Origin: Thermus brockianus
Lineage (GTDB): Bacteria; Deinococcota; Deinococci; Deinococcales; Thermaceae
Reading direction: 5' to 3'
DNA: 64,000 nucleotides
NCBI RefSeq assembly: GCF_001880325.1
Contig: NZ_CP016313.1
Coordinates: 124,001 to 188,000, forward strand
How positions within the stretch are numbered: position 1 is the first letter of the stretch; the number at the start of each line of letters is the position of its first letter. Under the pieces are notes generated by a model. That model saw nothing but the letters and a program-made list of their open reading frames with translations. It did not search any database and was not told the DNA's origin. Positions 4,723-49,991 of this stretch are shown here, piece after piece. The translations under genes and the position numbers were made by a program.

Positions 4723-4730
4723 GGGGTAGG

Positions 4731-13137: not shown

Positions 13138-13141
13138 CCCC

Positions 13142-13345: not shown

Positions 13346-13824
13346 CGCCCCTTTCCCCAGTGCACGTCCACCGTCACCACCTGAAAGACGCTGCCGCCGA
13401 ACACGAACCGCCCCTTCCCGAAATCCCCCCTGTATATCTCCAAATCGTCCCCGGCCACCTTAAAGCGATGGAAGCGGCGCAGGTCCCGGCTTACCAAGAG
13501 TTCATTCAAGCCAGACACGAAGACGTAGGTGCCGTTCCCATAGGCCACCCCGAAGAGGTCCCACCCCCGGTGGAGGCGAAGGGTTTCCCAATGGAGGCCG
13601 TCCCGCGAGCGCATGAGCACCCCGGCGTTGCCCACCGCCAGGAAACCCGCCTCCGTGTGGACAATGGCGTTCATGCGGGCCGGGGCCGGCACCTCCCGCC
13701 ACACCTCCCCATCCTTTGAGACCAGGAGGCGGAAGGGGGTGACGGCCACAAAGACCCCCTGGCCGAAGGCCACGTCCTCTACGCTCCCACCCGCCTCGTC
13801 CACCGCGTGCACCCGGGCCTCCAC
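13342..13824 (-). CDS. beta-propeller repeat protein, short
   Basis: The 160 residues consist of about four repeats of the type VAFGQGVFVAV...LLVSKDGEVW, VAYGNGTYVFVSG...LLVSRD, each a blade of a BNR/kelch-like propeller. The same repeat occurs in the lipoproteins at 56858-58750 and 59334-60673 and in the relic at 55612-55950. This copy has no signal peptide or lipobox and too few blades for a closed propeller. It may be a C-terminal remnant or need a partner. The start is GTG at 13824, 41 nt after the protease gene; the stop overlaps the 67-aa gene. Confidence 0.6.
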   Translation of the reverse strand: MEARVHAVDEAGGSVEDVAFGQGVFVAVTPFRLLVSKDGEVWREVPAPARMNAIVHTEAGFLAVGNAGVLMRSRDGLHWETLRLHRGWDLFGVAYGNGTYVFVSGLNELLVSRDLRRFHRFKVAGDDLEIYRGDFGKGRFVFGGSVFQVVTVDVHWGKGR

Positions 13825-13865
13825 TTGGGGCGTGGGCGAGGAGGAGGCCCACCAGGACCCACGCC

Positions 13866-25000: not shown

Positions 25001-25126
25001 GAGGGCCAGGTGGGTGTGGCCCAGGGCCGAGGCCACCTCCAGAAGCCTCTCGGGGGAGGAAACTCCCCGGCCGAAGTAGGACTCCGTCCAGAGCAGGGCT
25101 AGTCCAGGATCCGGCTCAGCACCCAT
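22082..25126 (-). CDS. dnaE2: DnaE2 error-prone C-family DNA polymerase
   Basis: DnaE2 is the catalytic polymerase of the ImuB-DnaE2 translesion mutasome. The protein has 1,014 residues, short for DnaE but usual for DnaE2. The N-terminal PHP domain is degenerate: ALTDWLSLSGGVRLHRHAEA has TDW where replicative enzymes have TDH. Catalytic Asp residues are visible in ALPDIDLDLASRRREEV and VKLDLLGLRTL. The helix-hairpin-helix region and OB fold (VVAKQKPPTARGYAFYVLED) follow. The ATG at 25126 lies inside imuB (28-nt overlap), so the two are coupled. It is third in the cassette behind the palindromic operator and probably damage-inducible. Confidence 0.93.
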   Translation of the reverse strand: MGAEPDPGLALLWTESYFGRGVSSPERLLEVASALGHTHLALTDWLSLSGGVRLHRHAEALGVVPLLGAGLPLKTPEGTFPVLLLAGSREGYARLSAHLTQALAEGSLPLEALLAANEDLVLLTGGREGFPSRLLAQRRLEALDRLLKALKEAFGDRLFLSLYHARLPGDDRRARVLRALAQDRGLPYVAALEVRQASPDLYPLLDALTCARLGLSVEVPHPDRPRNEALALPSREEALDRLPFPEAWANARALGKALAFPFLPERSLDPPVPLPPGQTPMGALSRLAWEALERRYPQRPAYRERLREELATVEALGLAGFFLLAHGVAAWARSRGILASARGSAVGSLLAHLLDLTPVDPVAEGLLFERFLHGGMKALPDIDLDLASRRREEVIRHLEEAYGAEEAMAAAYVTYRLPLAVQDLGRALGLPAPLRHRLTRALGRDFRHLSPHRAKEAEPLFREVLGEAPVKDLLLALLARMEKGQVRHLTPHVGGVVVAPGPLTRYAPVVRSTGGIRMLTLDKDDLEALGLVKLDLLGLRTLSALERAREEVFRLEGVWLDLERLPQEEAVYRPLWRGETLGVFQLESPAQTAMGRKLRPRSLEDLAHQIALVRPGPIQSGTVRPYLARRLGQEARPPLPPALEPILGKTQGVLLFQEQLLRLLHHGAGMDWPEAEAFRKAVAKARDEEDLRPLRERFLRGLAATLGLAGEEAEALWRMVEGFRGYGFTESHALAFARHAYATLWLKAHYPAEFLAGLLSEAPGMWPLSTLRQEARRLGVPFLPLCVNRSGLHYRVEVQGGVKALRPPLTAAQGVSEGVARAILRERLRGPFRSLEEFRARLDPPQDALLSLARAGAFEGLHPRREALFRAGLAPQGPLLAEGVPPPPLPPLEAGERLALDLEAKGFSELPLHPMDLLRGRLEELGATPIPLLRPGPALTAGLVVAKQKPPTARGYAFYVLEDGPHRLQAVIPPEVWARRYPTLRDARVLLVQGALQGGAMRVEEVWDLEGSTA

Positions 25127-26430
25127 CCTTCCCCCTCCCGGTAGACCTCCAGGACAAGCCCCCCCTCCACCTCCAGGAGGAAGTAGTCCCGCCCGGGCTC
25201 AAGGCGCCACCAGCGCCCGCCGGCCCGCCAGCGGTCCAGGAGGCGCACCACCCGCCGCTTCCTGCCCAGGACCACCCACCGGGGTTTCCCCCGTGGCAGA
25301 GGACCTTTAGGGGCACCAGGTAAAGCCGCATCCTCCACCTCCAGGCTCCGGTAGCGGAAGCCCCATTCCGGGGCCAGGGCCTCCGGGTCCAGGACCTCCA
25401 CCCGCAAAAGCGCCCCGGGGTAGCGGGCCAGGAGGGTTGCGAGCCCGGTTCCCGGCCGGCGGAAAAGCCCCTCCTGGTGGGCGGGGCGGTGGAGGCCCGA
25501 GGCCACCGCCCGCACCTCCTCCAGGGGCATCCCCCAGGCCCCGCTGCGCCGGAAGGCCAGCTCCAGGGCGAGCCGCACCTCCTTCTCCCCCCGCAAGGGG
25601 GCCTTGGCCAGGTGCTCCCCGCGGAAGCGAAGCCCCGCCCCCACCGCCTCCACCGCCACCCAGGTGGCGGCCTGGCCGGCGAGCCCCCGGTGGAGCCTCT
25701 GGGCCAGGTGCGCCAGAAGCCCAGGCCCCCCATCCACCTCGAGGTCCAGGGGGAGCCTGGCCTCCACCCATCGCCCCTCGGGGAAGCGGGCCACGCCAGG
25801 GCGCCAGGGGCCGTGGAGGTAGGGGAGAAGCCTTTCCCCTTCCGGGAGGTAGGCGCGGAGCTGGGCGGGGCTCCAGGCGAGGAGTTCGCCCACCCGCTTT
25901 AGGCCCAGGAGCCGGAGCTTCCCAAGCCCCTCGAGGCCCAACCCCACCCCCCTCAGGAGGTAAAGGGGGAGCCGGTCCAGGAAGGCCCGCTCCGCCCCTT
26001 CCGCCACCACCCGGGCTTCCCCTTCCCGGGCGGACCAGGCGGCCAGGAGGGCCACCTCCCGCCAGGCGGCCACTCCCACCCGCACCCCGTACCCCTCCGC
26101 CAGGAGCCGGGCCTCGGCGGGCGTGAGCCGGAGGAGGACGGCTCCCTCCGCCAAAGGCTCCACCCAGGGGGTGAGGCGGTAAAGCTCCTGGAGGAGGGCC
26201 CGCCAGGCGGGGGCGGCGTGGGCGGGGTAGGGGAGAAGGTGGAGGCCCGCCGCCCGTATCCGGGCCACCTCCACCCCCATCCCCTCCCGCACCCCGAGCC
26301 TTTGGGCCTGGGGGGAGAGGGCCACCACCCGCCCGCCCCGGTGGAGGGCCAGGGGGAGGTTTTTGAGCTCGGGCCGCTCCCGTCCAAGGAGCCAGACGGC
26401 CCAAGGGCGGAAGAGGGCGGCGGCCACCAT
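25099..26430 (-). CDS. imuB: ImuB, Y-family-like mutasome protein
   Basis: ImuB is a catalytically dead Y-family relative that bridges DnaE2 to the sliding clamp. The 443-residue protein begins ALFRPWAVWLLGRERPEL, where active Y-family enzymes have a metal-binding Asp. It continues WVEPLAEGAVLLRLTPAEA, where the active-site Asp-Glu pair is replaced. LGLEGLGKLRLLGLKRVGEL is the HhH thumb. The little-finger region and an extended C-terminus follow. Its ATG at 26430 is directly adjacent to the stop of the LexA-like gene with no gap. Family call rests on order and missing catalytic residues. Confidence 0.88.
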   Translation of the reverse strand: MVAAALFRPWAVWLLGRERPELKNLPLALHRGGRVVALSPQAQRLGVREGMGVEVARIRAAGLHLLPYPAHAAPAWRALLQELYRLTPWVEPLAEGAVLLRLTPAEARLLAEGYGVRVGVAAWREVALLAAWSAREGEARVVAEGAERAFLDRLPLYLLRGVGLGLEGLGKLRLLGLKRVGELLAWSPAQLRAYLPEGERLLPYLHGPWRPGVARFPEGRWVEARLPLDLEVDGGPGLLAHLAQRLHRGLAGQAATWVAVEAVGAGLRFRGEHLAKAPLRGEKEVRLALELAFRRSGAWGMPLEEVRAVASGLHRPAHQEGLFRRPGTGLATLLARYPGALLRVEVLDPEALAPEWGFRYRSLEVEDAALPGAPKGPLPRGKPRWVVLGRKRRVVRLLDRWRAGGRWWRLEPGRDYFLLEVEGGLVLEVYREGEGWVLSRILD

Positions 26431-36408: not shown

Positions 36409-36666
36409 ATGCCGCTCACCCGTCTCTCAACCAAAGGCCAGGTGGTCCTACCCAAGCCGGTACGGGAAGCCTTGGGCCTCAAGGCCGGGGATGAGCTTCT
36501 TGTCCAGCTGGAGGGGGAGGCCATCCGCCTCATCCCGTGGAGGAGGCGGAGCCTTGCGGAGGTCCTGGATGCCCTTCCCGGCCATCCCCCCAGGACCAGC
36601 TTCCCAAGCCCAGAAGCCCTCTTCGCCGCAGAGCGGGAGGAGGCGCGCCAGAGGTGGCGCCGATGA
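36409..36666 (+). CDS. vapB: VapB-like AbrB-family antitoxin
   Basis: The 85-residue protein carries the SpoVT-AbrB swapped-hairpin DNA-binding domain: RLSTKGQVVLPKPVREALGL, then KAGDELLVQLEGEAIRLIPW. The C-terminal part (EALFAAEREEARQRWRR) is the toxin-binding tail. It overlaps the PIN-domain toxin gene (ATGA) and has an inverted-repeat operator directly upstream, which together are the hallmark of a vapBC module. The transcript is probably leaderless from the TAAGAT box. Confidence 0.88.
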   Translation: MPLTRLSTKGQVVLPKPVREALGLKAGDELLVQLEGEAIRLIPWRRRSLAEVLDALPGHPPRTSFPSPEALFAAEREEARQRWRR

Positions 36667-37094
36667 TCGTGGACGCCAACTTTCTCCTGCGCCTCCTCAC
36701 CCGACACCCTGAGCCCATGTACCAGGCGGCCCGGGCCTTCGCCTTGGAGGCGGAACGCCGTGGCCTTGCCCTTGAGGTGCACCCAATACACGTGGCGGAG
36801 GTGGTCTACGTCCTGGAGGGACGCCTTTACGGCCTCTCCCCGAGGGAGGTGGCCCGCGAGCTCCTCGCCCTTCTTTCGGCACGGCCTTTTGTTCCGCGAG
36901 AGGAGGAGGCCTTGCGGGGCGCCTTGGAAGCATATCCGGAAAGCGGCCTGGACTTTCCTGACCTCTTCTTGGCCGAGCTTGCCCGGGCTGAGGGCAAGCC
37001 GGTGGTGAGCTTCGACCGCAAGATACGGCGGACCGGGGTCAAACTCATCGTGCCCAAAGGGCAAACTTGGACGGACCTCGGACCAAAGCCCTAG
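36663..37094 (+). CDS. vapC: VapC-like PIN-domain ribonuclease toxin
   Basis: A 143-residue PIN domain. Catalytic acidic residues: Asp4 in MIVDANFLLRLL, Glu in IHVAEVVYVLEGRL, Asp in LDFPDLFLAELA and Asp in VVSFDRKIRR. VapC toxins cut specific RNAs, often initiator tRNA, when not bound by the antitoxin. The ATG at 36663 overlaps the vapB stop; a longer frame from 36537 merely overlaps the antitoxin gene. All expected residues are present, so this is probably an active toxin held by VapB. Confidence 0.88.
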   Translation: MIVDANFLLRLLTRHPEPMYQAARAFALEAERRGLALEVHPIHVAEVVYVLEGRLYGLSPREVARELLALLSARPFVPREEEALRGALEAYPESGLDFPDLFLAELARAEGKPVVSFDRKIRRTGVKLIVPKGQTWTDLGPKP

Positions 37095-37924: not shown

Positions 37925-38128
37925 TCAGCGCTCGGGAACGTGGCCTAGCTCGATCACCAAGCGGAGCCACCTTCGCTCCCGCTCGTCCACCCCGGAAAGC
38001 AACCGCACGGGGTGGCCCGGCAGGTACCGGGCCACCACCGCTTCCAGGTCCTGGGCCAAGGCCTGCACCTCCGCCTCCGGGAGTTCCGGGGCGTCCAGCA
38101 GGATCTCCAGGGTATCTTTGCTCGTCAT
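37925..38128 (-). CDS. 67-aa hypothetical, end of signalling operon
   Basis: Small acidic protein (SKDTLEILLDAPELPEAEVQ, RWLRLVIELGHVPER). No recognised domain. Its ATG at 38128 overlaps the stop of the HD-GYP gene as ATGA, which supports translation as the last gene of the operon. It could be a dimer partner or regulator of the phosphodiesterase; no direct evidence. Confidence 0.6.
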   Translation of the reverse strand: MTSKDTLEILLDAPELPEAEVQALAQDLEAVVARYLPGHPVRLLSGVDERERRWLRLVIELGHVPER

Positions 38129-39570
38129 CTTTTCTTTACCTCCTCCCTCGCGGCACGCAGGGTCAAAAAGAGCTGAACCAGCCTCGGGTCTAGCTTCTTC
38201 CCCGCCATAGCCCTAAGCTCCTTCTCCGCCCGCTTCGGGTCGTAGGCGGGCTTGTAGGGCCTTGGGCTCACCAGGGCGTCCCACACATCCGCCACGGCGA
38301 AGACCCGGACGTGCAAAGGGATCTCCTCCCCCTTGAGCCCCCGGGGGTAGCCCGTGCCGTCCCAATGCTCGTGGTGGTAGAGGACCACCTCCAACGCCGC
38401 CTGGGATAGGAAGGGCACCCGGGCCAGGACCTCGTACCCCAGCTCGGGGTGCGTCTTCACCAGGCGCCACTCCCGGGTGACCAGGGGGCCATCCTTGTCC
38501 AGGATCTCCCGGGGGACGAAGAGCTTCCCCAGGTCGTGGAGGTAGGCCCCGATGCGCAGGCACTCCAGGTCCTTCACCCCCGCCCTTTCCCCCAGGGCCA
38601 CGGCCAGCTCCGCCACCCGCCGCATGTGCCCCTCGGTTTCGTAGTCCAGGCGCTCTAGGATGGCGGAAAGGGCCATGAGAAGCCCCTCGGTTTGGAGGCG
38701 CCGCTCCAGGTACCCCTCCAGCTCCTCCCGGGCCACCCGCAGGAGGGCCACCCCTTCCGGGGAGACCTCCACGGGGCGGGCGAAGCTGGCGAGGGCCAGG
38801 GCGCCATACGGCTTACCGGCCCGCTCCAAAAGGGCGAGGACCACGGTGCGCAAGCCCGCCTCCCGCATGGGGGGGAGGGCGTGGGGGAAGGTTTGGTAGT
38901 CGGGGATGACGGCGAAGTCACGCCCCTTTAGGAGGGCCGTAGCCCCCATGCCCAGACGCACGGCGTGCCGGCGGTACAGCTCGGGGTAGTCCGGCGGGTA
39001 CACCCCGGCGAGGACCCAGGGCCGGAAAGCTTCTCCCTCCAGCCGGAAGAGCACCCCCACTTCCAGGCCGGTGCGCTCCAAGAGGACCTCCAAAGCCCCC
39101 CGGATCTCCTCCGCCAAGGAAGCGCCTTGCCGTAGCCTTCGGGAGAGGGAGAGGAGGACCTCCAGGGTGGAAAGGCCCGCCATGCGGCCCTCCCGCAGGG
39201 CCACTGCCTCCAAGAGGGCCTCCAGAACCTCCTTCTCCTCCCCCAAGGGTCCTACTCCCTCCAGGGCCAGGACCAGGGAGCCGCGGCGGGCCATGTGGCC
39301 GAGCCGCCTTTTGCCGTCCGGGGAGAAGCCCAAGGGGCCGGGGGGTGGCGTGGTCCCTTCCCGTGGCTCCCACTCTGGGGGCAGGCGGAGGCCCCGGGCC
39401 AGCCCCGCTGTGCCCGCTGCCCCCACCACCCGGTACCGCCCCGCCTCCAACCGGAGGAGGTAGGCGCCCTCGGCCCCCAGGTGGGCCATGGCCCCCTCTG
39501 CCGCCCGGGCGTAGAGCTCCGGTAGGTCTTGGGCTTGCATCAGGCTAAGGAAGACCGCGGCGGTGCGCAT
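38125..39570 (-). CDS. GAF-GAF-HD-GYP c-di-GMP phosphodiesterase
   Basis: A 481-residue protein. Two GAF-type sensor domains occupy about residues 1-130 and 140-300. The C-terminal HD-GYP domain (about 310-480) has the metal-binding HD in AYLHDLGKLFVPREILDKDG, further His in VLYHHEHWDGTGYP (the GYP motif with HxxHE) and FAVADVWDALVSPRPYKPAY. All hallmark residues for c-di-GMP hydrolysis are present. It lies downstream of the PAS-GGDEF-EAL gene, about 80 nt away on the same strand. The start at 39570 may be a few codons too early; no strong Shine-Dalgarno is seen. Confidence 0.88.
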   Translation of the reverse strand: MRTAAVFLSLMQAQDLPELYARAAEGAMAHLGAEGAYLLRLEAGRYRVVGAAGTAGLARGLRLPPEWEPREGTTPPPGPLGFSPDGKRRLGHMARRGSLVLALEGVGPLGEEKEVLEALLEAVALREGRMAGLSTLEVLLSLSRRLRQGASLAEEIRGALEVLLERTGLEVGVLFRLEGEAFRPWVLAGVYPPDYPELYRRHAVRLGMGATALLKGRDFAVIPDYQTFPHALPPMREAGLRTVVLALLERAGKPYGALALASFARPVEVSPEGVALLRVAREELEGYLERRLQTEGLLMALSAILERLDYETEGHMRRVAELAVALGERAGVKDLECLRIGAYLHDLGKLFVPREILDKDGPLVTREWRLVKTHPELGYEVLARVPFLSQAALEVVLYHHEHWDGTGYPRGLKGEEIPLHVRVFAVADVWDALVSPRPYKPAYDPKRAEKELRAMAGKKLDPRLVQLFLTLRAAREEVKKR

Positions 39571-39649
39571 GGTACCGTAACCTCAGGGGTGGGAGATGGC
39601 CAGACCCCCTCTGGCCAAGCGGCCATTCTACCCGGGCCCATCTCTTGCT

Positions 39650-41326
39650 CTAGTCCTCTTTGGATCCGTCGCCGACCTGGCTTTCCCCCTTTTCTAGCCA
39701 GCGTCGGGGAAGGAGGGGGTGCGCTTCGGGCCGGTGAATGTGGAATCCTTGGGCGAAATCCGCCCTGAGCTCCCGGGCCAAGGCCAGTTGCTCTGGGGTT
39801 TCGACCCCTTCCAGCACCACCTTCAGGCCTAGGTCGTGGGCCATCCCCACCAGGTGGCCGAGGAGCGCCCGGGAGGGGGAACCTCCCGGCCCCGGGGGGC
39901 TCAAGAGCTCCCTCCCCACCTTCAGGAGGTCTAGAGGGAGCTGGCGGAGGTGTCCGAGACCCGTGGCCCCCGTGCCAAAGTCGTCCAAGGCTAGGCGGAA
40001 GCCGAGGCCTTTAAGCCGCCACAAGGCAGGGGCGATGCGCCCCAGCTGGTGGGTAGCGGTGCGCTCGCTGACCTCGATCACCGCCCGCCCGGGGTCAAGG
40101 CCTTGATGGATCAGGCGTTCCGCCAGGTTTAGAAAGCTGGTGTCCCCTAAGGACCACGGGGTCACGTTCACCCAGACCGTGAGGCCAGGATGGGTGGACT
40201 GGAGCCGTTGGAGTTCCTGCAGAACAAAGCGATCCAAGACCTCGTTGAGGGCCCGGCGGGACAGGTCCATCTGGGGCAGGGGGTTGACGTAGCCTTCGGG
40301 GCGCCGCAACCGGAACAGCACCTCGGCGTCCTCCAGCCGGTCCTCCTTTAAGTTGAGGATCCCCTGCAGGAAAAGCTGGCTCTGGCCCGTGGTTAAGGCG
40401 TGATGAAACTCCGCTTCCAGCGCCAGGGCTTGCGGCGTGAGGCCATCCAGGTCTGGGGTAAAGGCCTCGGGTTCCTTTAGCCGGAAGAGCTTCGCCCGGT
40501 ACATGGCCAGGTCGGCCCGCCGCAATAGCTCCTGCAGGCTCACCCCATGGTCCGGGAAGAGGACCAAGCCCAGGCTCGCCTCCAGGCGCACGGGCTGGCC
40601 GTGAACCGACACCTCTACGGATGCCGCCCGGAGCAGGAGCGCGGCCTTGGCTTTGGCCTCCCCGAGATCGTCGGCGGGGTACCAGGCGGCAAACTCGTCC
40701 CCTCCCAGCCTTCCCACCACCGCCTGGGGAAGAGCACCCTTCAGGTTCCGGGCCAACTGGGCCAGCACCTCGTCCCCCGCCGCGTGCCCCAAGGTGTCGT
40801 TCACCGTTTTGAAGCCGTCCAGGTCCAGGTAGGCCAGGGCCCGGCGGCTCCTTGCGTAAAGGATGTCCTTCTTCACCCGCTCGGCGAAAGCCCTTCGGTT
40901 CAGGAGACCAGTCAAGGGATCCAGGGTGGAAAGCGCCTCCAGCCGGGCCCGGAGGGCCATCTCCTCGGTGACGTCGCGGCTGGTGGCCACCAGGTACTCC
41001 ACGGCGCCGCTGGGGCCCCGGATGGGGGTGACCACCTTTTCCTCCGTGTAGAGGGTTCCATCCTTGCGGCGGTTGACAAAGACACCCCGAAAGGGGTGTC
41101 CCGATAGGATCTCCTCCCAAAAGCGCCGGTAGAACTCCAGGGGATGGTGGCCTGACTTGAGAAAGCGAGGGTTTTTCCCCAGCACCTCCTCCCGCCCGTA
41201 CCCCGTGAGGCGCTCGAAGGCGCCGTTCACGTAGACGATGCGCCCCGTGGCGTCGGTGATCAGGACGCTCTCGGCCAGTTGCTCCAAGACGCTTTGGAGC
41301 ACATGGGGCGGGAGGAGGCGGGTCAT
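39650..41326 (-). CDS. PAS-GGDEF-EAL c-di-GMP enzyme
   Basis: A 558-residue signalling enzyme. A PAS domain (residues about 8-125) starts LAESVLITDATGRIVYVNGA. The GGDEF domain has a canonical active site RLGGDEFAAWYP with LAYLDLDGFKTVNDTLGH, so diguanylate cyclase activity is likely. In the EAL domain the name motif is EVL (EDAEVLFRL). Most other catalytic positions are kept: WVNVTPWSL, VIEVSERTA, LALDDFGTGATGL, LLKVGREL and VLEGVETPEQ. The balance of cyclase and phosphodiesterase activity cannot be told. The ATG at 41326 overlaps the stop of the globin gene (ATGA). Confidence 0.9.
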   Translation of the reverse strand: MTRLLPPHVLQSVLEQLAESVLITDATGRIVYVNGAFERLTGYGREEVLGKNPRFLKSGHHPLEFYRRFWEEILSGHPFRGVFVNRRKDGTLYTEEKVVTPIRGPSGAVEYLVATSRDVTEEMALRARLEALSTLDPLTGLLNRRAFAERVKKDILYARSRRALAYLDLDGFKTVNDTLGHAAGDEVLAQLARNLKGALPQAVVGRLGGDEFAAWYPADDLGEAKAKAALLLRAASVEVSVHGQPVRLEASLGLVLFPDHGVSLQELLRRADLAMYRAKLFRLKEPEAFTPDLDGLTPQALALEAEFHHALTTGQSQLFLQGILNLKEDRLEDAEVLFRLRRPEGYVNPLPQMDLSRRALNEVLDRFVLQELQRLQSTHPGLTVWVNVTPWSLGDTSFLNLAERLIHQGLDPGRAVIEVSERTATHQLGRIAPALWRLKGLGFRLALDDFGTGATGLGHLRQLPLDLLKVGRELLSPPGPGGSPSRALLGHLVGMAHDLGLKVVLEGVETPEQLALARELRADFAQGFHIHRPEAHPLLPRRWLEKGESQVGDGSKED

Positions 41327-41907
41327 GCCCCTTCTTTGCGGATGGCCTCCAGCATCTCCCGCGCCTCCTCCACGGTGAGGCGCTCCAGGAGGGCGGGCTC
41401 CATGCCGGCCACGTTGTAAAGGGCGAGGGCCCGGTAGCGGTCGTACCCGTGGGTGATCACCGCTCCCACCGCCATGCTCAGCCGGTAGAAGGCCTCCGTT
41501 AGGGGATCCGCCTCGGGGTGCCCGCCCTCATGGGTCTTGTGCTCCACGAAGGCGGCCACGAAGGAGGCCATGGCCAGCATCATGGGGTTTTCCACCCCCC
41601 GCACCACGTGCACCAGGCCCACCTTGGCCATCCAGGCGAAGTACCCCTCGTCCAGGGGCCCCTGCACCGTCCGTTGCCACCAGCGCCTCAGGGTTTCCTC
41701 CCGGTCGGGCCTTTCCCCCTCCCGGAAGACCCTGGCCGTGGGGGGATGGGCGAAGAGGGTGTCGTAGAAGGCCCCCACCAGCTCCTCCGTCCAAGAGAGG
41801 AGGGTGTCCTTGTGACGGGCGATCACCGCCGCGTCCTCCGGACGGAAGCGGGTTTCGGGCGGCATCTGCGCCAACGCTTCCTTGGCGATTTCCAGCATCT
41901 TGGTCAT
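41323..41907 (-). CDS. protoglobin-like sensor protein, copy C
   Basis: A 194-residue single-domain globin of the protoglobin/globin-coupled-sensor type. The F-helix motif VGLVHVVRGVENPMML has the proximal His in the expected GxxHxxxG setting. The E-helix region reads FYDTLFAHPPTARVFREGER. It is a close paralogue of the gene at 42880-43434, sharing the segment around FAHPPTARVFREGERP word for word. The C-terminal extension (LERLTVEEAREMLEAIRKEG) is helical. By family it should bind heme and sense O2, CO or NO. Translationally coupled to the PAS-GGDEF-EAL gene. Confidence 0.78.
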   Translation of the reverse strand: MTKMLEIAKEALAQMPPETRFRPEDAAVIARHKDTLLSWTEELVGAFYDTLFAHPPTARVFREGERPDREETLRRWWQRTVQGPLDEGYFAWMAKVGLVHVVRGVENPMMLAMASFVAAFVEHKTHEGGHPEADPLTEAFYRLSMAVGAVITHGYDRYRALALYNVAGMEPALLERLTVEEAREMLEAIRKEGA

Positions 41908-41917
41908 GGTTCACCTC

Positions 41918-42283
41918 CTAGCCCAGGATTTGGGCGATCCGGCTCGCCGCCTGGCGGGCTTCCAGGTGGATGAGGCCCAGGTTGGCCCCCATGGGGGCGG
42001 TGACCGCCAGCACCCCCTTTTCCCCGGCGGCGTAGACCACGAGGTAGCCTTCCCGGCCCCGCACCACCACTTCCTCCAGACCGCCAAGGGCTGAGGTCTG
42101 GGCGATGCGCTTCCCCAAGCCCAGGGCCGTGGCCGCCATGGCCGCCGCCCGGGCGGCCTCCGCTTCTGGGAGGTCCGTGGCCAGGGAAAGGCCATCCGTG
42201 GAGGCCACCATGGCCCCGGTAAGCTCCGGTACCGCTTGCCTCAACGAACGCACCACCCCTTGCAGTTCTTCGTGACGGCTCAT
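41918..42283 (-). CDS. roadblock/LC7 protein (MglB/CvnB-like)
   Basis: The 121-residue roadblock/LC7 domain begins MSRHEELQGVVRSLRQAVPE and contains the strand pairs GAMVASTDGLSLATDLPEAE and YLVVYAAGEKGVLAVTAPMG. Roadblock proteins bind small GTPases, as MglB does for MglA, acting as activating partners or scaffolds. The GTPase gene at 43448-43981 in the same operon is the likely partner. Spacing: 3 nt from the upstream gene stop and 10 nt from the next start. A 2-protein unit like CvnB-CvnD of actinobacterial conservons. Confidence 0.88.
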   Translation of the reverse strand: MSRHEELQGVVRSLRQAVPELTGAMVASTDGLSLATDLPEAEAARAAAMAATALGLGKRIAQTSALGGLEEVVVRGREGYLVVYAAGEKGVLAVTAPMGANLGLIHLEARQAASRIAQILG

Positions 42284-42286
42284 GCT

Positions 42287-42883
42287 CTACTCCTCTCCGG
42301 CCGTTTTGGCCATCTGCTCGTACAGCTCTCGGCTAATCCCCGTGGCCTTAAGGAACTTGGCCAGGAGACGTTCCTCCAGTTCCCGTGCTTGGAGCTCGCT
42401 TTCGTAGGTGTACTGTTGGGCGACGATGGCGAGGTTGTACAAGGAAACCAGGGCCAGGGCCCGGTTCAACCGGGCCAAAAGGCCCGGGTCCTCGTGGAAT
42501 AGCTCGCTGAAGACGCGGGTCCACTCGTCCACCCAGAGGCCGTAAATCCCCGCCACCAAGGTGCCGGTGCTGAAGCCCGCTTCCAGGTAAGCCCTACCGG
42601 CCCGCGCGCGCCTTTCCAGGTACTCCGCGTCCAAGGTAGGCCGCGCGAAGTAGACCTGGGCGATGGCGGTGAGGGCCTGGGTCACGTCCTGGATTTGCTG
42701 GGTCAGGGGATGGTGGCGGAGGCGCTCGGCGATGCGGCCGGCGACCACCGGGAAGTAGGGCTCCACCTGTTCCCGGACCGAAGCGAGAAGCTCCCAGTCC
42801 GAGAGGACCCCCATGAGCTCGGCCATCTGCCGAAGGTAGGCCGCGCGTTCCTCTGGGGTTAGGGCGAACAGGTTCTTGATCAT
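42287..42883 (-). CDS. globin-fold sensor, copy B, without proximal His
   Basis: A 198-residue all-helical protein of globin-sensor size. The region ARAGRAYLEAGFSTGTLVAG aligns with the F helix GxxHxxxG of globin-coupled sensors, but Tyr stands where the heme-binding His is expected. Helices before it read YFPVVAGRIAERLRHHPLTQ. It may bind heme through Tyr, bind another ligand, or have lost heme. It lies between the roadblock gene and globin copy A with a 4-nt overlap (42880-42883). The family assignment is by length, helix pattern and operon context, hence moderate. Confidence 0.6.
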   Translation of the reverse strand: MIKNLFALTPEERAAYLRQMAELMGVLSDWELLASVREQVEPYFPVVAGRIAERLRHHPLTQQIQDVTQALTAIAQVYFARPTLDAEYLERRARAGRAYLEAGFSTGTLVAGIYGLWVDEWTRVFSELFHEDPGLLARLNRALALVSLYNLAIVAQQYTYESELQARELEERLLAKFLKATGISRELYEQMAKTAGEE

Positions 42884-43434
42884 CCCATCCCCTCCACCGC
42901 GATGCGCACGCTCCGCTCCAAGAGTTCCTTGCTCTGGCCCGTGATCTCCCGGGCTGCTTTTAGGTAAACCTCCTTGTAGCCCTCGGCGATGAGGGCGGCC
43001 ACGGTGGCCATGAGGCGGTTGACCGATGGGGCCGCCTCGGGCAGGCGGTCCGCCACGAACCGGGCCACGAAGGCGGCGTGGCCCAGCATCATGGGGTTGG
43101 ACACATCCCGCTTGAGATGTACCAAACCCACGTACGCTTGCCAGGCCCAGTAGTCCAGGTCAAAGGGACCCTCCACCGTCCGCCGCCACCAGCGCCTCAG
43201 GGTTTCCTCCCGCTCGGGCCTTTCCCCCTCCCGGAAGACCCTGGCCGTGGGGGGATGGGCGAAGAGGGTGTCGTAGAAGGCCCGCACCAGCTCATCCCCT
43301 AGGGCGAGCAACGCCCCCTTGTGCCGGGCGAGGGCCTCGGCGTCCGCCTGGGAGAAGCGGTCCTCCGGGGGCATCTCGGCCAGAACCCGCTGGGCCAACC
43401 CTTGGAAAAACCCGTTGTCCTTGTCCATTCCCAC
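42880..43434 (-). CDS. protoglobin-like sensor protein, copy A
   Basis: A 184-residue globin paralogous to copy C at 41323-41907. The proximal His is in VGLVHLKRDVSNPMML with the G-x-x-H pattern. The segment FYDTLFAHPPTARVFREGER is shared with copy C. The C-terminal helix (AREITGQSKELLERSVRIAV) could couple to a partner. As a single-domain sensor it must signal through another protein, the GTPase, DUF4388 or c-di-GMP enzymes in the same operon being candidates. The stop overlaps the start of copy B. Confidence 0.78.
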   Translation of the reverse strand: MGMDKDNGFFQGLAQRVLAEMPPEDRFSQADAEALARHKGALLALGDELVRAFYDTLFAHPPTARVFREGERPEREETLRRWWRRTVEGPFDLDYWAWQAYVGLVHLKRDVSNPMMLGHAAFVARFVADRLPEAAPSVNRLMATVAALIAEGYKEVYLKAAREITGQSKELLERSVRIAVEGMG

Positions 43435-43447
43435 CTCCTCCTTAAGC

Positions 43448-43981
43448 TCACCAAACCCCCTGCCACCTTTCCCCCGTCACCAGCTCCAGGATGCGGATGA
43501 GGGCCAAAGTGGCGCTGGTGGGGCTCGTGGCGTTCATCCCCACCACGTGCTCAGGGGGGAGGCCGAAGTAGTCGGCCACCTCCCCGGGGGTCCACACTTT
43601 GGGAAGGTCCTGCCGCGTCACCCCCACCACGAAGGGGACGGGGTGGCGCGAGGTCAGGTACTCCAGGATGTGGCGGGCTTTGGGAAAGTCCCTGGGGCTA
43701 TCCCCCGGCACCAGGACCACCAACCCCAAGGCCCCCTCCACCAGGACGTCCCACATGAAGTCGAAACGCTCCTGGCCCGGGGTGCCGAAGAGGTAGATGG
43801 GCACGCCGTCCAGGGTGAGTAGGCCGAAGTCCATGGCCACGGTGGTCCGCTCCTTGCCGATCTCTTCCGAGGCCCACTCGTCCGTTTCCACCACGGGGAT
43901 CTCGGAGAGGGACTGGATGAAGGTGGTCTTCCCGGCGCCCACGGGACCGGAGACGAGGAGCTTTAGGGGTTTCCCCCTCAT
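43448..43981 (-). CDS. small GTPase (CvnD/MglA-like)
   Basis: A 177-residue Ras-like GTPase. P-loop SGPVGAGKTTF, switch I Thr in RTTVAMDFG, G3-like YLFGTPGQERFDFMWD as in the CvnD family rather than the classical DxxGQ, and a modified G4 VTRQD in place of NKxD. The TPGQERF...FMWD spelling is characteristic of GTPases encoded in conservons. The roadblock partner is three genes downstream. It starts within the last codons of the DUF4388 gene, an overlap of 4 nt. It probably works as a switch between the sensors and output enzymes. Confidence 0.88.
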   Translation of the reverse strand: MRGKPLKLLVSGPVGAGKTTFIQSLSEIPVVETDEWASEEIGKERTTVAMDFGLLTLDGVPIYLFGTPGQERFDFMWDVLVEGALGLVVLVPGDSPRDFPKARHILEYLTSRHPVPFVVGVTRQDLPKVWTPGEVADYFGLPPEHVVGMNATSPTSATLALIRILELVTGERWQGVW

Positions 43982-44619
43982 CCCCGCCTCCCCATGAGCG
44001 AGGCCAGAAGCCGCCGGAGGAGGCCCCGCTTCTCCTCGTCCGGCCGGGTTTCCTGGTAGGCCCGCACCGGGGCCACCTTGCCCGCCAGGCGAAGCTTGTG
44101 CAGGTAGTAGGCCACCTCTTCCACCGGGAGCCCCAGCCGATGGCCGAGGTCCTCGGCGGAGGCTCCTTGGGCCAAGAGGGGCCTGGCCCGCTCCCAGAAG
44201 GACCAGAGGGGTTCTTCCAGCCAGACCTCCAGGGCCACCGCCTGGAACCGGGTCTTGGGGTCGGGCAGGTGGGGCCGGTAGGCGGCGAGTTCGTCCACCA
44301 CGGTGGTGGTGGTGAGGAGGATCCGCTCCAGGGGCCAGCCCAGGGCCTGGCCGTTGGGCGGCGGGGGCGGGGTACCTTGGGCGAACTCGAAGGCCCCCTC
44401 TTCCGCCCGGAAGAGTTCCTGCAGAACGGAACGGGCCTGGACGGGGTCCAGGACCTTGGTCCCTTCCCGCACCCAGAGGACCTTTCCCCCATCTAGGGCG
44501 ATGGTGTAGCCCACCTTGCGGCCTGGTAGGTGGAACACCTCCAGCACCCCACTCCTTCGGCCCAGCATCCCCACCAGGTCGGGGAAAGGCATGTCCTTCA
44601 GGCTGCCGAAGATGGCCAT
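43978..44619 (-). CDS. DUF4388 (PATAN)-HTH protein
   Basis: The ATG at 44619 gives MAIFGSLKDMPFPDLVGMLG, the standard start of DUF4388; the frame continues upstream to 44673 only as Gly-rich nonsense. DUF4388 covers about residues 1-95 (VGYTIALDGGKVLWVREGTK). A C-terminal winged-helix-like part follows (GASAEDLGHRLGLPVEEVAY). Such proteins are common next to MglA/roadblock GTPase modules and two-component systems; the role is regulatory but unproven. It overlaps the IclR-like gene end by 22 nt and the GTPase start by 4 nt, so translation is coupled. Confidence 0.82.
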   Translation of the reverse strand: MAIFGSLKDMPFPDLVGMLGRRSGVLEVFHLPGRKVGYTIALDGGKVLWVREGTKVLDPVQARSVLQELFRAEEGAFEFAQGTPPPPPNGQALGWPLERILLTTTTVVDELAAYRPHLPDPKTRFQAVALEVWLEEPLWSFWERARPLLAQGASAEDLGHRLGLPVEEVAYYLHKLRLAGKVAPVRAYQETRPDEEKRGLLRRLLASLMGRRG

Positions 44620-45380
44620 AGCTCCGCCACCACCTCCTTTAGCGCCGGGGCCAAGGCCCGGCAGGCACGACACGCTTTGGGCGCTTCGGGGGCTTCAAAC
44701 ACACAGGGATCCCCCATGGGGAGGGAAAGGCCCAAAGCGGCGAAGGCTTCCCCCGTGGCGGCGCGCAGGGGTACGGCCAGGCCACAACGGTCCGGGATCG
44801 CTTCCCCACGCGCCCGGGCGAAGCCCAGCTGGCGCACCTGGCCCAGGTCCGCTTGCACGGCGGCCACGGTGGAGAGGGTACGTGGGGTGAGGGGTTTCGG
44901 GGGAAAGCGCTGGAGGTGGGCCCGGAGGGCCTCCTCCCGCAGGAAGGCCAGGATGGCCTTCCCCCCGGCGGAGGCGTGGGCGTGGCCCGTCACGGGGCGC
45001 CGTTCATCGCGGAAGGGCCAGAGGCGCTGGCCACGGTTGCCCGAGGTCGCCTCCACGTGGAGCCCCCAAGGACGCACCGTGAGGACGTAAGCCCGGAGAC
45101 CAGTGCGGGAAAAAGCCTCATGCGCCAGTTCCTGGTAGAAGAAGGGGTCGTCGGGGGCTTCGGGTATGGGGATGAAGGGATGGGGGTAGCGGAGAACCCA
45201 CCGCCCGGTCAGGGGGTCCCGGGCGGCGAAGCCTTCCACCCGTAGGGCTTCTAGCGCCTTGGCGAGGGAGCGGGGGCTCACGCTCAGGCTTTTCGCCAGC
45301 TCTGTGGGGCGTAACCCCAGGGGATGGGCATAGAGGGCTTTGAGTGCCCTGAGGGGTAGGTGGAAGGAGCTCCTGGGCAT
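44598..45380 (-). CDS. IclR-family regulator with Cys-rich tail
   Basis: First gene of the signalling operon. The ATG at 45380 gives a 260-residue protein with an N-terminal winged HTH (GLRPTELAKSLSVSPRSLAK, ALEALRVEGFAARDPLTGRW) and an IclR-type ligand domain (HAHASAGGKAILAFL is the family signature). Upstream codons belong to IS DNA and were not used. Unusual for IclR, it has Cys in IPDRCGLAVPL and three Cys in the last 40 residues (PCVFEAPEAPKACRACRAL, a C-x2-C pair), possibly a metal or Fe-S site. IS copy 2 is inserted 84 bp upstream of the ATG. Confidence 0.82.
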   Translation of the reverse strand: MPRSSFHLPLRALKALYAHPLGLRPTELAKSLSVSPRSLAKALEALRVEGFAARDPLTGRWVLRYPHPFIPIPEAPDDPFFYQELAHEAFSRTGLRAYVLTVRPWGLHVEATSGNRGQRLWPFRDERRPVTGHAHASAGGKAILAFLREEALRAHLQRFPPKPLTPRTLSTVAAVQADLGQVRQLGFARARGEAIPDRCGLAVPLRAATGEAFAALGLSLPMGDPCVFEAPEAPKACRACRALAPALKEVVAELWPSSAA

Positions 45381-45464: not shown

Positions 45465-46501
45465 CCCCCCTTTCGGATATTCAATGCATACCCCCTTGAC
45501 AAGCCAAAGGAAAAGGGGGCGCTTGGTGAGCTGTGGAAGAACACCAGACGCCCCCTTCCATCCTACCCCTGCCCCTGGAGGAACTGGTCCCCCTGCTCCA
45601 GGCATGGCTCCAAGCCCGCTTGCCAGAAGGGGAGAGAAAACCCGGCAGGCCCAGGACCTTCTCCGACCTCAGCCTCTTTCTCTTCCACCTGGTCCGCGCC
45701 CTCCTGGGCTTCTCCAGCGAACGCATGCGCCGGGAACTGGCCCGCAACCCTAGGCTCCGCAAGCGCCTCGGTCTAGAGCGCGTTCCCTCCTCTGCCACCC
45801 TCAGCGAGCGGAGCCGGAAGCTACCCTGGCCCCTCCTGCGGGGAGGGAAGCGGGTGGGCCGGGGGAGGCGGGTGCTGGCCATGGACGCCACCCTTCTCCC
45901 CGCCCAGAGGTCGGATGGGGAGGCGGCTTGGGGCGTGGGCTCGGATGGGGGCTGGGTTTATGGGTACAAGCTCCACCTCCTCGTGGACCTGGACACGGGG
46001 GAGGTGCTGGCCCTACGGGTGACCCCGGCCTCATGGCACGACTCCCCGGTGGGGCGGGGGATGCTCTGGGGGGTGGAGAGGTTTCCTGGGGAGAAGCCCC
46101 CCGTGGTGGTGGCGGACGCGGCCTACGAGGGGGAAGCCAACTTTCGGTTGACGAGGAGGCGAGGGATGCTTCTGGTGACGGGGCATAACCGGAGACGGGG
46201 AAGGCCAAAGGGGAGGGGGCGGCTTTTGAACCTGCGGCGGCGGGGGAGAGGTGCGTACCGGAGGCTTTTGGGGCGGCGGTGGGAGCTGGAGACGGTCTTT
46301 GGTCTGCTGAAGGGGCCGATGGGGCTGGTGGGGGCGGTGGGGAGGGTACGGGGGCTGAAGGCGGTGGCCCTGCAAGTGGAAGCTTGGGTGATGGCCTGGA
46401 GCGTGGTGGCCCAGCTTCTTGGGCAGGCGGGTCTGCCCATCACCCGGGTGTTGCGGGCGGTGGCGTGAGGTGAGTACGCAGGTGAATATCCGAAAAGGGG
46501 G
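45465..46501 (+). mobile_element. 1,037-bp insertion sequence, copy 2
   Basis: Same ends, length and transposase as copy 1 at 15981. The target duplication is AATATGCACACAA (45452-45464 and 46502-46514), 13 bp against 11 bp at copy 1. It sits between the IclR-headed operon and the divergent GAF-PAS-GGDEF-EAL gene, 84 bp from the first and 454 bp from the second start codon, and may alter expression of both. Confidence 0.9.
45533..46468 (+). CDS. DDE transposase of IS copy 2
   Basis: The 311-residue transposase is identical in every residue to the one at 16049-16984. Acidic catalytic positions are in LAMDATLLPA, VVVADAAYEGEANF and RRWELETVFGLLKG. The GTG start at 45533 lies 68 nt inside the IS left end. 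Identity of the copies including silent sites indicates very recent movement. The reading direction is opposite to the IclR-headed operon and towards the large sensor gene. Confidence 0.9.
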   Translation: MEEHQTPPSILPLPLEELVPLLQAWLQARLPEGERKPGRPRTFSDLSLFLFHLVRALLGFSSERMRRELARNPRLRKRLGLERVPSSATLSERSRKLPWPLLRGGKRVGRGRRVLAMDATLLPAQRSDGEAAWGVGSDGGWVYGYKLHLLVDLDTGEVLALRVTPASWHDSPVGRGMLWGVERFPGEKPPVVVADAAYEGEANFRLTRRRGMLLVTGHNRRRGRPKGRGRLLNLRRRGRGAYRRLLGRRWELETVFGLLKGPMGLVGAVGRVRGLKAVALQVEAWVMAWSVVAQLLGQAGLPITRVLRAVA

Positions 46502-46514
46502 AATATGCACACAA

Positions 46515-46955
46515 GTATTGCTCGCCTTGGCTGGGCCCTAAAAGGGGCAATATCCCATTCCCCCAAGAAGAGGACGCCTCGGGATTGTCCGCTCCGGGGG
46601 AAACCGGGAAATTGCGCCAGTCGGCTTCGGCATACGGTTCCGCAGGATGGGGTGGGAAGGGCGCTGTGGCCAGCCTCCCCGGCCTCCCTTGGGCACTTTT
46701 TTGTGGATTGGAGTGCTGTGGGCTGGGCCGGCTAGGACACCAGGGGTACTCGGGCGAAACCGATAAAGGGCGGTGGTTGCTCTTGGGAGAAGCCGCGAGC
46801 GCGAGGGCGGGTGGGGCAGCAAGGGCCCCGGTGCCACGCCGGGCGACGGCTGCTGCCGGAGCTTGGGCGCTGGCCGCTGCGTCGTTTCAGGATGCGGAAG
46901 GTGGTAGCGCTTTAAGAAAGGGGCGTTGGGGAAGTATATAATTCGGGTTGGACCG
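46515..46955. other. upstream region of large sensor gene
   Basis: No supported gene. I looked for a c-di-GMP riboswitch-like fold and found none I could defend. A -10 box TATAAT lies at 46937-46942, with a weak -35 region about 17 nt earlier. Confidence 0.4.
46937..46942 (+). promoter_or_regulatory. -10 box of large sensor gene
   Basis: Consensus TATAAT. The transcript would start near 46949, which rules out the upstream start at 46926 and supports ATG 46956 with a leader of only a few nucleotides. Confidence 0.6.
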
Positions 46956-49900
46956 ATGCCCCGCCGGACAAATGCGACTCTTCATCTTATGAAACTTCTC
47001 TTAACCGATGCGCCGTTTCTTCAAAGGCTTGACGCTTTCTTGAGCGCTCTCTTGGATCTTCCCTGGATGTCCCTGGAAGGCAAAGGGGCTATCTTTCTGC
47101 GCCAGGGACAAGGCTTGCGCTTGGTGGTAGGGCGCTACCTGGATGAGCCGTTGCAGCGCCTGTGTGCTCGGGTTCCGTTAGGGCGGTGCCTGTGCGGAAG
47201 GGTGGGGCTTTCGGGCAAAGCGCTTGTGGTCCAGGAGGTTGGCGAGGCTCACGAAATCCGCTATCCCGGCATGCCGCCGCATGGCCACGCTATCTACCCT
47301 TTGAAGGTGGGGGAGCGGGTCTTGGGGGTGCTTACCCTATACCTGCCACCAGGGAGGTTGCTCTCGGCGGAGGAGGCAGCCCTGCTGGAAACGGCGGCGG
47401 GCCTGCTGGCCTTGGCGGTTTTGCGTGAGCGGGCGGAGCGGGCGGCTAGGGTCGTGCGCCGGGCGGCTTTGGCCCTGTGGCAGGCCTCGGACGAAAGGGC
47501 TTTTCTTCAGGAAGTGTGCAGCCTGCTAGTGGACGAGGGATATCTACTGGCCTGGGTGGGGGAGGCGTTGCCTGGGGGCCAGGTGCGGGTGTATGAGGGG
47601 GCAGGGGCAGTGGGTTACCTGGAGGGCCTCTTGGTACGCTGGGATGAAACCCCGGAGGGCCAAGGCCCCACGGGCCGCGCCATCCGAAGTGGGGAAAGTC
47701 AAGTCTTAAGGGATGTGGAGGGGGACCCTCGCTACGGCCCGTGGCGAAACCGGGCCCAGGCCTTTGGCTTTGCTTCCAGTGCGGCGTTGCCGCTCAGAGT
47801 GGAGAACCGGGTTTGGGGTGCCCTAAACGTTTACGCGCCGGAATCGGACGCGTTTGATGCAGAGGAACTTTCCTTGTTGCGGACTTTGGCCCAGCTGGTC
47901 AGCCGAGGGCTGGAGCGCTTCAGAATAGAGGCCAAGGTGCACCTCCTTGCCCAGGTGGTAGAGGAGGTCCCGGAAAGCATCTTCCTAACGGACCTGGAGG
48001 GTAGGATCTTTTACGCAAATCCAGCGGCGTGCCGCCGGACGGGGTACACCTTGGAAGAACTCCTTGGGCAGAATCCTCGCCTCTTTAAGTCAGGGAAGAA
48101 CCCCCAGACCTTCTACCAGGAGCTTTGGGAGACCCTACGCCGGGGAGAGATCTTTCAAGGGGTATTTTGGAACCGTAGCAAGACGGGCCGGATTCTGGTG
48201 GAACACAAGATCCTTACCCCAATCCGGGATGACCAAGGACAGGTGATCGCCTTTGCTTCGACCGGGCGGGAAATAACCCGGGAGTACATGCTTTCTCGCC
48301 TCCAAGGGGCGATGCGGTCCTACCTCGAGGGCTTGTTGCGGGAGGGGGTGCAGGCCCATGGGCTCCGGGGGCTTTTGCGCGAGGTTCTTGAGGCGGTGCC
48401 GGGTGCCGAAATGGCCGCCTTGTTGCTGAAGGGCAAAGATGGGCTTTTCTCCTTCGCGGAACTGGTGGGCGAGTGGGATCCCCGATGGAAGGAATGGGTT
48501 CTACCTCCGGAGGCTTTGGCCCACTTGTCCCAATATGGGACCTTGTCCCAGCTCGAGTTGGAGAGGCTGGCGATGCGCTTACCCGAGGAAACCCGTGCCC
48601 TGGTGGTGAATGGCCTGGGGACCCTGAAAGACGCGGTGTACGTGCGCTTGGAGAGGGGGGGTGAGACCCGCGGGTTTCTCGTGGTAGGGTCGTACCGCTG
48701 GCGCATGGCCCCGGAGGTAGAGGAGGCGTTGCGCTTTCTCGCTGTGGAGATTCAAGGGGTCTTGGAGTGGGAAGAGGCACAGGTCCTGTCACGATGGCTG
48801 AGCCTGCACGATCCGGTGACGGGCCTGCCCAACAGAACCTTCTTGGAGATGGAGCATGCGAAGGTTAGGGGACCCCTTGGCTTTTTCCTTTTAGAGCTCG
48901 AAGGCGTAAGCGAGATCAACCAAACCCATGGTCGCGCTGCCGGGGACGAGGTGTTGCGCATTTTGGCGGGGCGCTTCCAAACCCTCCTTCCTCCAGAGGG
49001 CAAGCTTTATCGTACCGGCGAGGTCGAGCTTCTATTTATCCTCCCCGTGGAGCCTGTACGGGCCGTCGAATTTTACCAGCGGCTGAAGGAGGCCTTGAAT
49101 GAGCCCGTTTACGTGGCTAACGAGGCGGTGCGGTTGGGTGGTGCAGTGAGCGCGGTTTTCGCTCCTGAAGATGGCCAAGACATGTCGAGCTTGCTCCGCC
49201 GGGCAGATTTGGCCTTACGCCGGGCCAAGCGGGAAGGGGGTTTGGCCTTCTTCAACCCGGTGATGGAGGAAGCCCACCGGCGGCGGCAGGATATCTTAAG
49301 CGGTCTAGAGGCAGCTTTGCGCGAGAGAGGGTTGCGGCTTTTCGCCCAGCCTATCGTGGATGTGCCTACGGGGAGAACCTTGGCGCTAGAGCTTCTTCTG
49401 CGCTGGCCCCGGAAAGGCGAGTTCGTGCCCGCTTCGGAGTTCATCCCCCTGGCGGAGGAAACGGGGTTGGTGGTCGAGCTGGACCTTTACGTACTTCGGG
49501 AAATCGTAGCCTGGCCCGAACTGGGCACCTGCCTTCATGTCAACGTTTCCGCCAGGACTCTCCATGACGAGAGACTTCTTGCGGCGCTGGAAGCCTTGAG
49601 GGGAAGGCGGCTTCGGTTAGAGGTCACGGAGTATACGCTGGCCGATGCCAAGGCTGAGCAGGTGCTCGAACGCATAAAGGCGATGGGTTTCGGCCTAGCC
49701 TTGGATGACTTCGGTCAAGGCTTCGCCTCTCTCAGAAGCCTGATACGTTTTCCTTTTTCCGTGGTGAAGGTGGATCGGGCCTTTACCTGGGGGATAGGTA
49801 AGGACCCTAAGGCGGAGGTGGCCTTGAGGAGCATCCTGAGCCTGACCCAGGAGCTCGGGCTCCTGGTGGTGGCGGAAGGTGTGGAGACGGAAGCCCAGCG

Positions 49901-49991
49901 GACCTGGCTCCTTGAGGCGGGCTATCCATTGGCCCAGGGATATCTGTTGGGCCGTCCGGAGCCTCTGGAGTTTTATATGGACAGCGCCTAG
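46956..49991 (+). CDS. GAF-GAF-PAS-GGDEF-EAL sensor enzyme
   Basis: About 1,011 residues from ATG 46956. Two GAF domains (about 10-150 and 170-320; LGRCLCGRVGLSGKALVVQE, GPTGRAIRSGESQVLRDVEG), a PAS domain (about 335-450, ESIFLTDLEGRIFYANPAAC), a third GAF-like region and then GGDEF and EAL. The GGDEF site is lost: YRTGEVELLFIL replaces GGDEF. The EAL domain keeps NVSARTL, EVTEYTL, LALDDFGQGFASL, VVKVDRAF and VAEGVETEAQ, with ELL in place of EAL. I infer an active c-di-GMP phosphodiesterase with a degenerate cyclase as regulator. It lies divergent from the globin/GTPase operon, with IS copy 2 between them. Confidence 0.9.
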   Translation: MPRRTNATLHLMKLLLTDAPFLQRLDAFLSALLDLPWMSLEGKGAIFLRQGQGLRLVVGRYLDEPLQRLCARVPLGRCLCGRVGLSGKALVVQEVGEAHEIRYPGMPPHGHAIYPLKVGERVLGVLTLYLPPGRLLSAEEAALLETAAGLLALAVLRERAERAARVVRRAALALWQASDERAFLQEVCSLLVDEGYLLAWVGEALPGGQVRVYEGAGAVGYLEGLLVRWDETPEGQGPTGRAIRSGESQVLRDVEGDPRYGPWRNRAQAFGFASSAALPLRVENRVWGALNVYAPESDAFDAEELSLLRTLAQLVSRGLERFRIEAKVHLLAQVVEEVPESIFLTDLEGRIFYANPAACRRTGYTLEELLGQNPRLFKSGKNPQTFYQELWETLRRGEIFQGVFWNRSKTGRILVEHKILTPIRDDQGQVIAFASTGREITREYMLSRLQGAMRSYLEGLLREGVQAHGLRGLLREVLEAVPGAEMAALLLKGKDGLFSFAELVGEWDPRWKEWVLPPEALAHLSQYGTLSQLELERLAMRLPEETRALVVNGLGTLKDAVYVRLERGGETRGFLVVGSYRWRMAPEVEEALRFLAVEIQGVLEWEEAQVLSRWLSLHDPVTGLPNRTFLEMEHAKVRGPLGFFLLELEGVSEINQTHGRAAGDEVLRILAGRFQTLLPPEGKLYRTGEVELLFILPVEPVRAVEFYQRLKEALNEPVYVANEAVRLGGAVSAVFAPEDGQDMSSLLRRADLALRRAKREGGLAFFNPVMEEAHRRRQDILSGLEAALRERGLRLFAQPIVDVPTGRTLALELLLRWPRKGEFVPASEFIPLAEETGLVVELDLYVLREIVAWPELGTCLHVNVSARTLHDERLLAALEALRGRRLRLEVTEYTLADAKAEQVLERIKAMGFGLALDDFGQGFASLRSLIRFPFSVVKVDRAFTWGIGKDPKAEVALRSILSLTQELGLLVVAEGVETEAQRTWLLEAGYPLAQGYLLGRPEPLEFYMDSA

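Follow-up and report, generated by a model that had tools for sequence, protein, structure and literature searches.

Protoglobin genes linked to an MglA-type GTPase and its roadblock partner in Thermus brockianus and other bacteria

A stretch of 64,000 nucleotides from Thermus brockianus (positions 124,001 to 188,000 of contig NZ_CP016313.1, assembly GCF_001880325.1), here called the window and used for numbering unless another contig or locus is named, carries a ten-gene operon on the minus strand (37925-45380) which encodes, among other proteins, a DUF4388 protein, a small Ras-like GTPase of the MglA family, three globins (A, B and C) and a roadblock protein. The conserved unit in this operon is DUF4388-GTPase-roadblock-sensor, and it recurs in several phyla either with a globin or with a protein of a different family in the sensor slot. 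We put the probability at about 55% that in the Thermus operon heme globins serve as the input to a switch of the roadblock/MglA type, with pilus function and cyclic di-GMP (c-di-GMP) as output. A wider proposal, to which we give somewhat less than an even chance, is that such operons are widespread and so far undescribed Ras-like GTPase circuits, in which stand-alone sensors that can replace one another (heme protoglobin, Aer-type PAS protein with flavin adenine dinucleotide (FAD), diiron hemerythrin) pass O2/redox signals on via the roadblock protein; such circuits would be the G-protein equivalent of aerotaxis receptors and would probably direct surface motility. To our knowledge, inputs are known for few bacterial Ras-like GTPases other than those of Myxococcus and Streptomyces, and three chemically different O2/redox-binding families in one slot beside a GTPase-roadblock pair provide a concrete input candidate.

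Linkage between globin and GTPase genes was assessed in a scan of GTDB genomes carrying the GTPase and in two paired surveys of Deinococcota and Chloroflexia, a matching globin in a GTPase-bearing genome being counted as linked when it was located ≤3 kb from the GTPase gene. This applied to 20 of the 27 matching globins in Deinococcota and to 24 of 40 in Chloroflexia (about 0.09 and 0.08 expected by chance, respectively), or 44 of 67 in the pooled set against a chance figure of about 0.2, although these chance figures ignore the shared ancestry of the linked genomes and so overstate their independence, and p-values derived from them should be read with caution. Linkage was seen in Deinococcota, Chloroflexota, one cyanobacterium and one gammaproteobacterium, and because of this recurrence we regard the globins as genuinely coupled to the GTPase and roadblock genes, as the initial annotation of the window had supposed. 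The Chloroflexota and gammaproteobacterial genomes reached contain one or two matching globins each, the best of which lies inside the cluster. In each of the 36 globin cluster records that were scored, some of which come in pairs from one and the same genome, globin and GTPase genes are located on the same strand. The globin gene is usually next to the roadblock gene, with a gap below 220 bp in 31 of 33 scored records, and several gene orders occur (DUF4388-GTPase-Robl-globin; Robl-globin-DUF4388-GTPase; globin-Robl-GTPase-DUF4388; GTPase-globin-Robl). A globin gene beside a roadblock gene is also present in loci with no GTPase gene nearby, two from Deinococcota and two from Chloroflexia (L151, L152, L182, L196). 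In the GTPase tree, globin linkage changes state about ten times and the deep joins, which involve long branches, are unsure, so that one origin versus several is not settled by this tree. One locus (L033) contains a reading frame (12874-13863) that resembles a Rosetta-stone fusion of roadblock and globin; it was rejected as a probable assembly error because a 10.16-kb unit occurs twice there with 99.9% identity, the copies differing by indels only. This unit, repeated head to tail (G015:C1), carries DUF4388-GTPase-roadblock-globin-globin genes, and the contig probably represents a small circular plasmid that the assembly has doubled into a dimer.

Proteins in the sensor slot were sought in 80 loci. 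A stand-alone Aer-like PAS protein of about 160 residues is encoded near the roadblock gene in 15 of them, all from beta- and gammaproteobacteria (L077, L079, L081, L086-L089, L098, L109, L110, L113, L117 and L125 being such loci), and it aligns with the N-terminal PAS domain of Escherichia coli Aer in the motifs ITH.N and RHPDMP, a tryptophan ten residues past RHPD, and VKN.RK.G. Hemerythrin-like proteins, one or two per cluster, occur in five GTPase-roadblock-DUF4388 clusters of cyanobacteria and of Thermochlorobacter (Chlorobi) (L051:2299-3250, L052:1917-2860, L053:3522-3950, L055:10478-10933 and L059:7670-8083). Combinations exist as well, since one Gloeomargaritales cluster contains a globin and a hemerythrin and one Chromatiales cluster a globin and an Aer-like PAS protein. 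As judged from their sequences, these proteins would bind FAD, a diiron centre and heme, respectively. It is likely that the Aer-like PAS protein and hemerythrin, which replace or join the globin, are with it exchangeable sources of O2/redox input for a switch of the roadblock/MglA type. Their presence in sister clusters makes the heme-gas or redox input that was initially proposed for the Thermus operon more probable.

We found no earlier description of exchangeable O2/redox partners on a roadblock/MglA-type GTPase switch. Searches of open-access papers for protoglobin or DUF4388 together with roadblock, and for hemerythrin together with roadblock and GTPase, returned nothing, and a description in a subscription journal is possible. 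Within the open-access literature, no description of a protoglobin-GTPase cluster was found. The nearest precedent is HGbRL of Methylacidiphilum, a globin-roadblock fusion with ligand-driven movement (PMC4476040), in which the globin signal is thought to reach the roadblock domain as proposed here; in contrast to the operon proteins, HGbRL belongs to the HGbI-like globin group and not to the protoglobins, is a single polypeptide and has been reported from one genus only.

Globin A (42880..43428, minus strand) and globin C (41323..41907, minus strand) are stand-alone protoglobins (Pfam Protoglobin, 7e-19 and 2.5e-18) that score above the family cut-off and possess both heme-ligand residues of the family, the proximal histidine and the tyrosine at position B10 (His106 and Tyr54 in globin A). 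The nearest PDB sequence to globin A is the AfGcHK globin (5ohe). Both proteins are predicted to bind heme and a gaseous ligand. Globin B (42287..42883, minus strand) passes the Pfam threshold narrowly (8.7e-6) and has lost both residues, tyrosine being present in place of the histidine and alanine in place of the tyrosine. Its AlphaFold2 (AF2) model has a mean confidence score (pLDDT) of 89, with the AfGcHK, GsGCS and HemAT globins as top Foldseek matches, and the protein is probably a non-heme partner with a globin fold. Of the three globin-type sensors announced by the initial annotation, all thus match the family, whereas the heme histidine is confined to A and C. A further Thermus (L034) and a different genus of the family (L199) also have degenerate copies resembling globin B. 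Across the linked globins, heme histidine and B10 tyrosine are both present in 51 of 55, the exceptions being three globins of the B type and one partial row, and an alignment of 14 rows of cluster-linked globins, drawn from four phyla, shows no variation at either residue. Globin-coupled sensors such as HemAT, AfGcHK and DosC share globin family and heme residues with the proteins described here, but in the operon the output is unfused and consists of a separate roadblock/GTPase gene set. The non-heme globin domains of RsbR have, like globin B, kept the fold and lost the proximal histidine, but globin B has neither a STAS domain nor a stressosome context.

The GTPase (43448..43981, minus strand; Pfam ATP_bind_1 7e-17, Arf 8e-4) shows the features of MglA groups 2-5, in which the G3 motif reads GTPGQ and threonine replaces the group 1 arginine beside the G2 threonine (PMC4316618): in the aligned set, TT is located at positions 46-47 and GTPGQ at 66-70. 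The G4 motif is TRQD in Thermus and TKQD or NKQD in Chloroflexota, to be compared with [NT]KxD in group 5, and the GTPase tree contains no reference sequences of the groups. The roadblock/LC7 protein (41918..42283, minus strand; Pfam Robl_LC7 1e-17), which is MglB/CvnB-like and has 7f8m and CvnB5 (3leq) as PDB relatives, contains the Asp-Gly pair found in partners of groups 2-5 (PMC4316618). Its gene lies three genes downstream of the GTPase gene, within the distance of four genes that applies to these groups, and in most relatives the two genes adjoin. As in the group 1 MglA/MglB systems of Myxococcus and T. thermophilus, a small GTPase and a roadblock regulator are encoded in one operon, but here G3 is GTPGQ instead of TVPGQ, and globins and DUF4388 are added. 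The systems described by Wuichet and Sogaard-Andersen (PMC4316618) share with the operon the GTPGQ GTPase of groups 2-5, the Asp-Gly roadblock protein and occasional PATAN neighbours (groups 1 and 5); a search of that text for globin found no mention, and what is new here is the partnership with globin, hemerythrin or Aer-PAS proteins. Actinobacterial G-protein systems, the conservons (CvnA-D), likewise combine roadblock and GTPase genes in an operon, to which accessory proteins that bind a cofactor or ligand may be added, for example the P450 CvnE and the GAF protein CvnF (PMC13343842), but they include the kinase-like CvnA and CvnC (DUF742). Neither is found among the Pfam matches of nine of the ten operon genes, and the tenth, of 67 codons, is too short to encode either, so membership in the conservons was rejected. 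Elsewhere in the genome, a separate GTPase, of the TVPGQ type, adjoins a roadblock gene on the chromosome (C1:190k), a second cluster of the GTPGQ family has the order DUF4388-GTPase-roadblock-REC-HD-GYP and no globin (C1:822k), and two roadblock genes lie side by side (G000:C1:1400465-1401023).

In the mechanism that we favour, globins A and C would bind heme and sense O2 (or NO/CO), and globin B may pair with one of them as the non-heme partner. Ligand binding would alter the contact between globin and roadblock protein, which is the likely signal receiver because its gene is nearest to the sensor and a natural globin-roadblock fusion exists in HGbRL. Acting as GTPase-activating protein or guanine nucleotide exchange factor, the roadblock protein would then determine whether the GTPase carries GTP or GDP, in the way that MglB acts on MglA. 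The GTPase would in turn act through the DUF4388 protein, and its target would probably be the function of type IV pili. In other bacteria, an Aer-like FAD-PAS protein or a hemerythrin would take or share the place of the globin. The DUF4388 protein (43978..44619, minus strand; Pfam 9e-10; AF2 mean pLDDT 84) gave no confident match to PDB folds. We take DUF4388 to be a PatA-N (PATAN)-type domain. It is the best candidate for the effector of the GTPase; in Synechocystis, the pilus motor PilB1 is a target of PATAN response regulators (PMC7690835). If the mechanism holds, gas sensing would be tied to bacterial small-GTPase signalling and, in Thermus, also to c-di-GMP and possibly twitching; the heat-stable proteins of Thermus are well suited to biochemistry.

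The c-di-GMP arm concerns two genes. The PAS-GGDEF-EAL protein (39650..41326, minus strand) has an intact GGDEF motif and most EAL motifs, except that KxD reads KVG with loss of the aspartate, and the HD-GYP protein (38125..39570, minus strand), a predicted phosphodiesterase, has intact HD and HHExxDGxGYP motifs; the two are putatively active c-di-GMP enzymes. The latter had been described as GAF-GAF-HD-GYP; HD-GYP and a single clear GAF domain are found, and the second GAF is below Pfam significance. In the Thermus lineage these enzymes would add a c-di-GMP output, with PilF as c-di-GMP binder: the pilus ATPase PilF of T. thermophilus binds c-di-GMP, which affects twitching (PMC11731258). The enzymes are, however, confined to Thermus and near relatives and missing from most clusters outside the genus. 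A general coupling of the module to c-di-GMP was therefore rejected, the c-di-GMP half of the initial interpretation being reduced to an extension of the core that is local to Thermus, and control of the enzymes by the GTPase is weakly supported because outside Thermus they are not a conserved companion of the module. It is a possibility of some weight, though a doubtful one, that two systems lie side by side, namely a switch made up of DUF4388, GTPase, roadblock and globin and, independent of it, a c-di-GMP pair driven by its own PAS and GAF sensor domains, an arrangement compatible with the globin-to-GTPase part of our mechanism and incompatible with its c-di-GMP output. The conserved core without c-di-GMP genes outside Thermus speaks for such independence, whereas globin C is overlapped by the EAL gene, an EAL gene comes after the core in T. 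oshimai and in two other Thermus genomes as well, and the globin-less chromosomal paralogue is directly followed by the REC-HD-GYP gene, so that Thermus has acquired the c-di-GMP link more than once.

Further observations weigh against the globin-input mechanism, in addition to the shared ancestry and the restricted distribution of the c-di-GMP enzymes mentioned above. Neither the plasmid clusters of Deinococcus nor the chromosomal paralogue of Thermus has a globin beside DUF4388-GTPase-roadblock, and the globin is therefore dispensable to the core; T. brockianus SNM4-1 has no roadblock and globin B genes, yet has kept the rest of the operon. That the globins serve in O2/NO handling (scavenging or detoxification) and are merely co-regulated with the GTPase, with no signalling to it, would agree with the annotation of protoglobins as domain proteins only, with no fused signalling domain, and with the unlinked globins of the family in nearly every Thermus genome. 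We consider this unlikely, since linkage survives rearranged gene orders across phyla, exchange for Aer-like PAS or hemerythrin is more in keeping with sensing than with a common detoxification chemistry, a globin-roadblock fusion exists (PMC4476040) and globin B is devoid of both heme residues. Still less probable is a transcriptional switch in which the GTPase controls gene expression through the DUF4388 and IclR-like proteins, and not pili or c-di-GMP directly, for although the C-terminal part of the DUF4388 protein is predicted to be helical and possibly winged-helix, a receiver-like protein with a winged helix-turn-helix domain occurs in group 3 systems (PMC4316618) and an IclR-like gene heads the operon, the fold matches of DUF4388 are weak (E > 0.03) and clusters outside Thermus have no IclR-like gene.

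All ten genes of the operon were found where the initial annotation had placed them, with Pfam domains that agree. They are separated mostly by 4-bp overlaps or by gaps below 20 bp, the exception being 79 bp ahead of the HD-GYP gene. The first gene (44598..45380, minus strand) encodes the IclR-like regulator, with a helix-turn-helix and a partial IclR_C domain (Pfam 8.6e-14), and is annotated with the identical length of 783 bp in T. brockianus SNM4-1; the last (37925..38128, minus strand) encodes a conserved small protein of 67 residues that overlaps the HD-GYP stop codon (WP_071678120.1 in SNM4-1). The locus is orthologous to one on the SNM4-1 megaplasmid pTbrSNM4-1b (97.8% identity), where almost every gene is found again, in the same order and with 97-98% identity, and has its own annotation, so that the open reading frames of the operon are real genes. 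A tract of about 90 bp is nearly identical between globins A and C (blastn 78% over 332 bp, window 41544-43382); in SNM4-1, recombination inside this homology has deleted the genes for globin B and the roadblock protein, and one chimeric globin remains. The window is part of a non-chromosomal contig of 342,792 bp (G000:C2) in a genome of 2.39 Mb, the largest contig of which (2.04 Mb) is presumably the chromosome.

Upstream of the operon, a divergent gene (46926..49991, plus strand), absent from the initial annotation, encodes a GAF-GAF-PAS-GGDEF-EAL protein in which the GGDEF motif is lost; it is a conserved neighbour with the same place and orientation in SNM4-1 and thus a probable member of the locus. 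Between it and the operon lies an insertion sequence with a DDE transposase gene (45533..46468, plus strand), which is not part of the system and is not present at that place in SNM4-1. The same transposase occurs twice in the window, the copy at 16049-16984 having identical domain scores, and the copy in the operon upstream region may affect the operon promoter. Elsewhere in the window, genes for Cas3, Csd1/Cas8c, Cas7 and Cas1 were identified by Pfam (2476-10198), Csd1 pointing to type I-C, and genes for a DnaE-like polymerase and an ImuB-like protein adjoin as a mutasome-like pair (22082-26430). A MazE-type antitoxin gene adjoins that of a PIN-domain (VapC-like) protein at 36409-37094, and a multicopper oxidase is encoded at 61878-63377.

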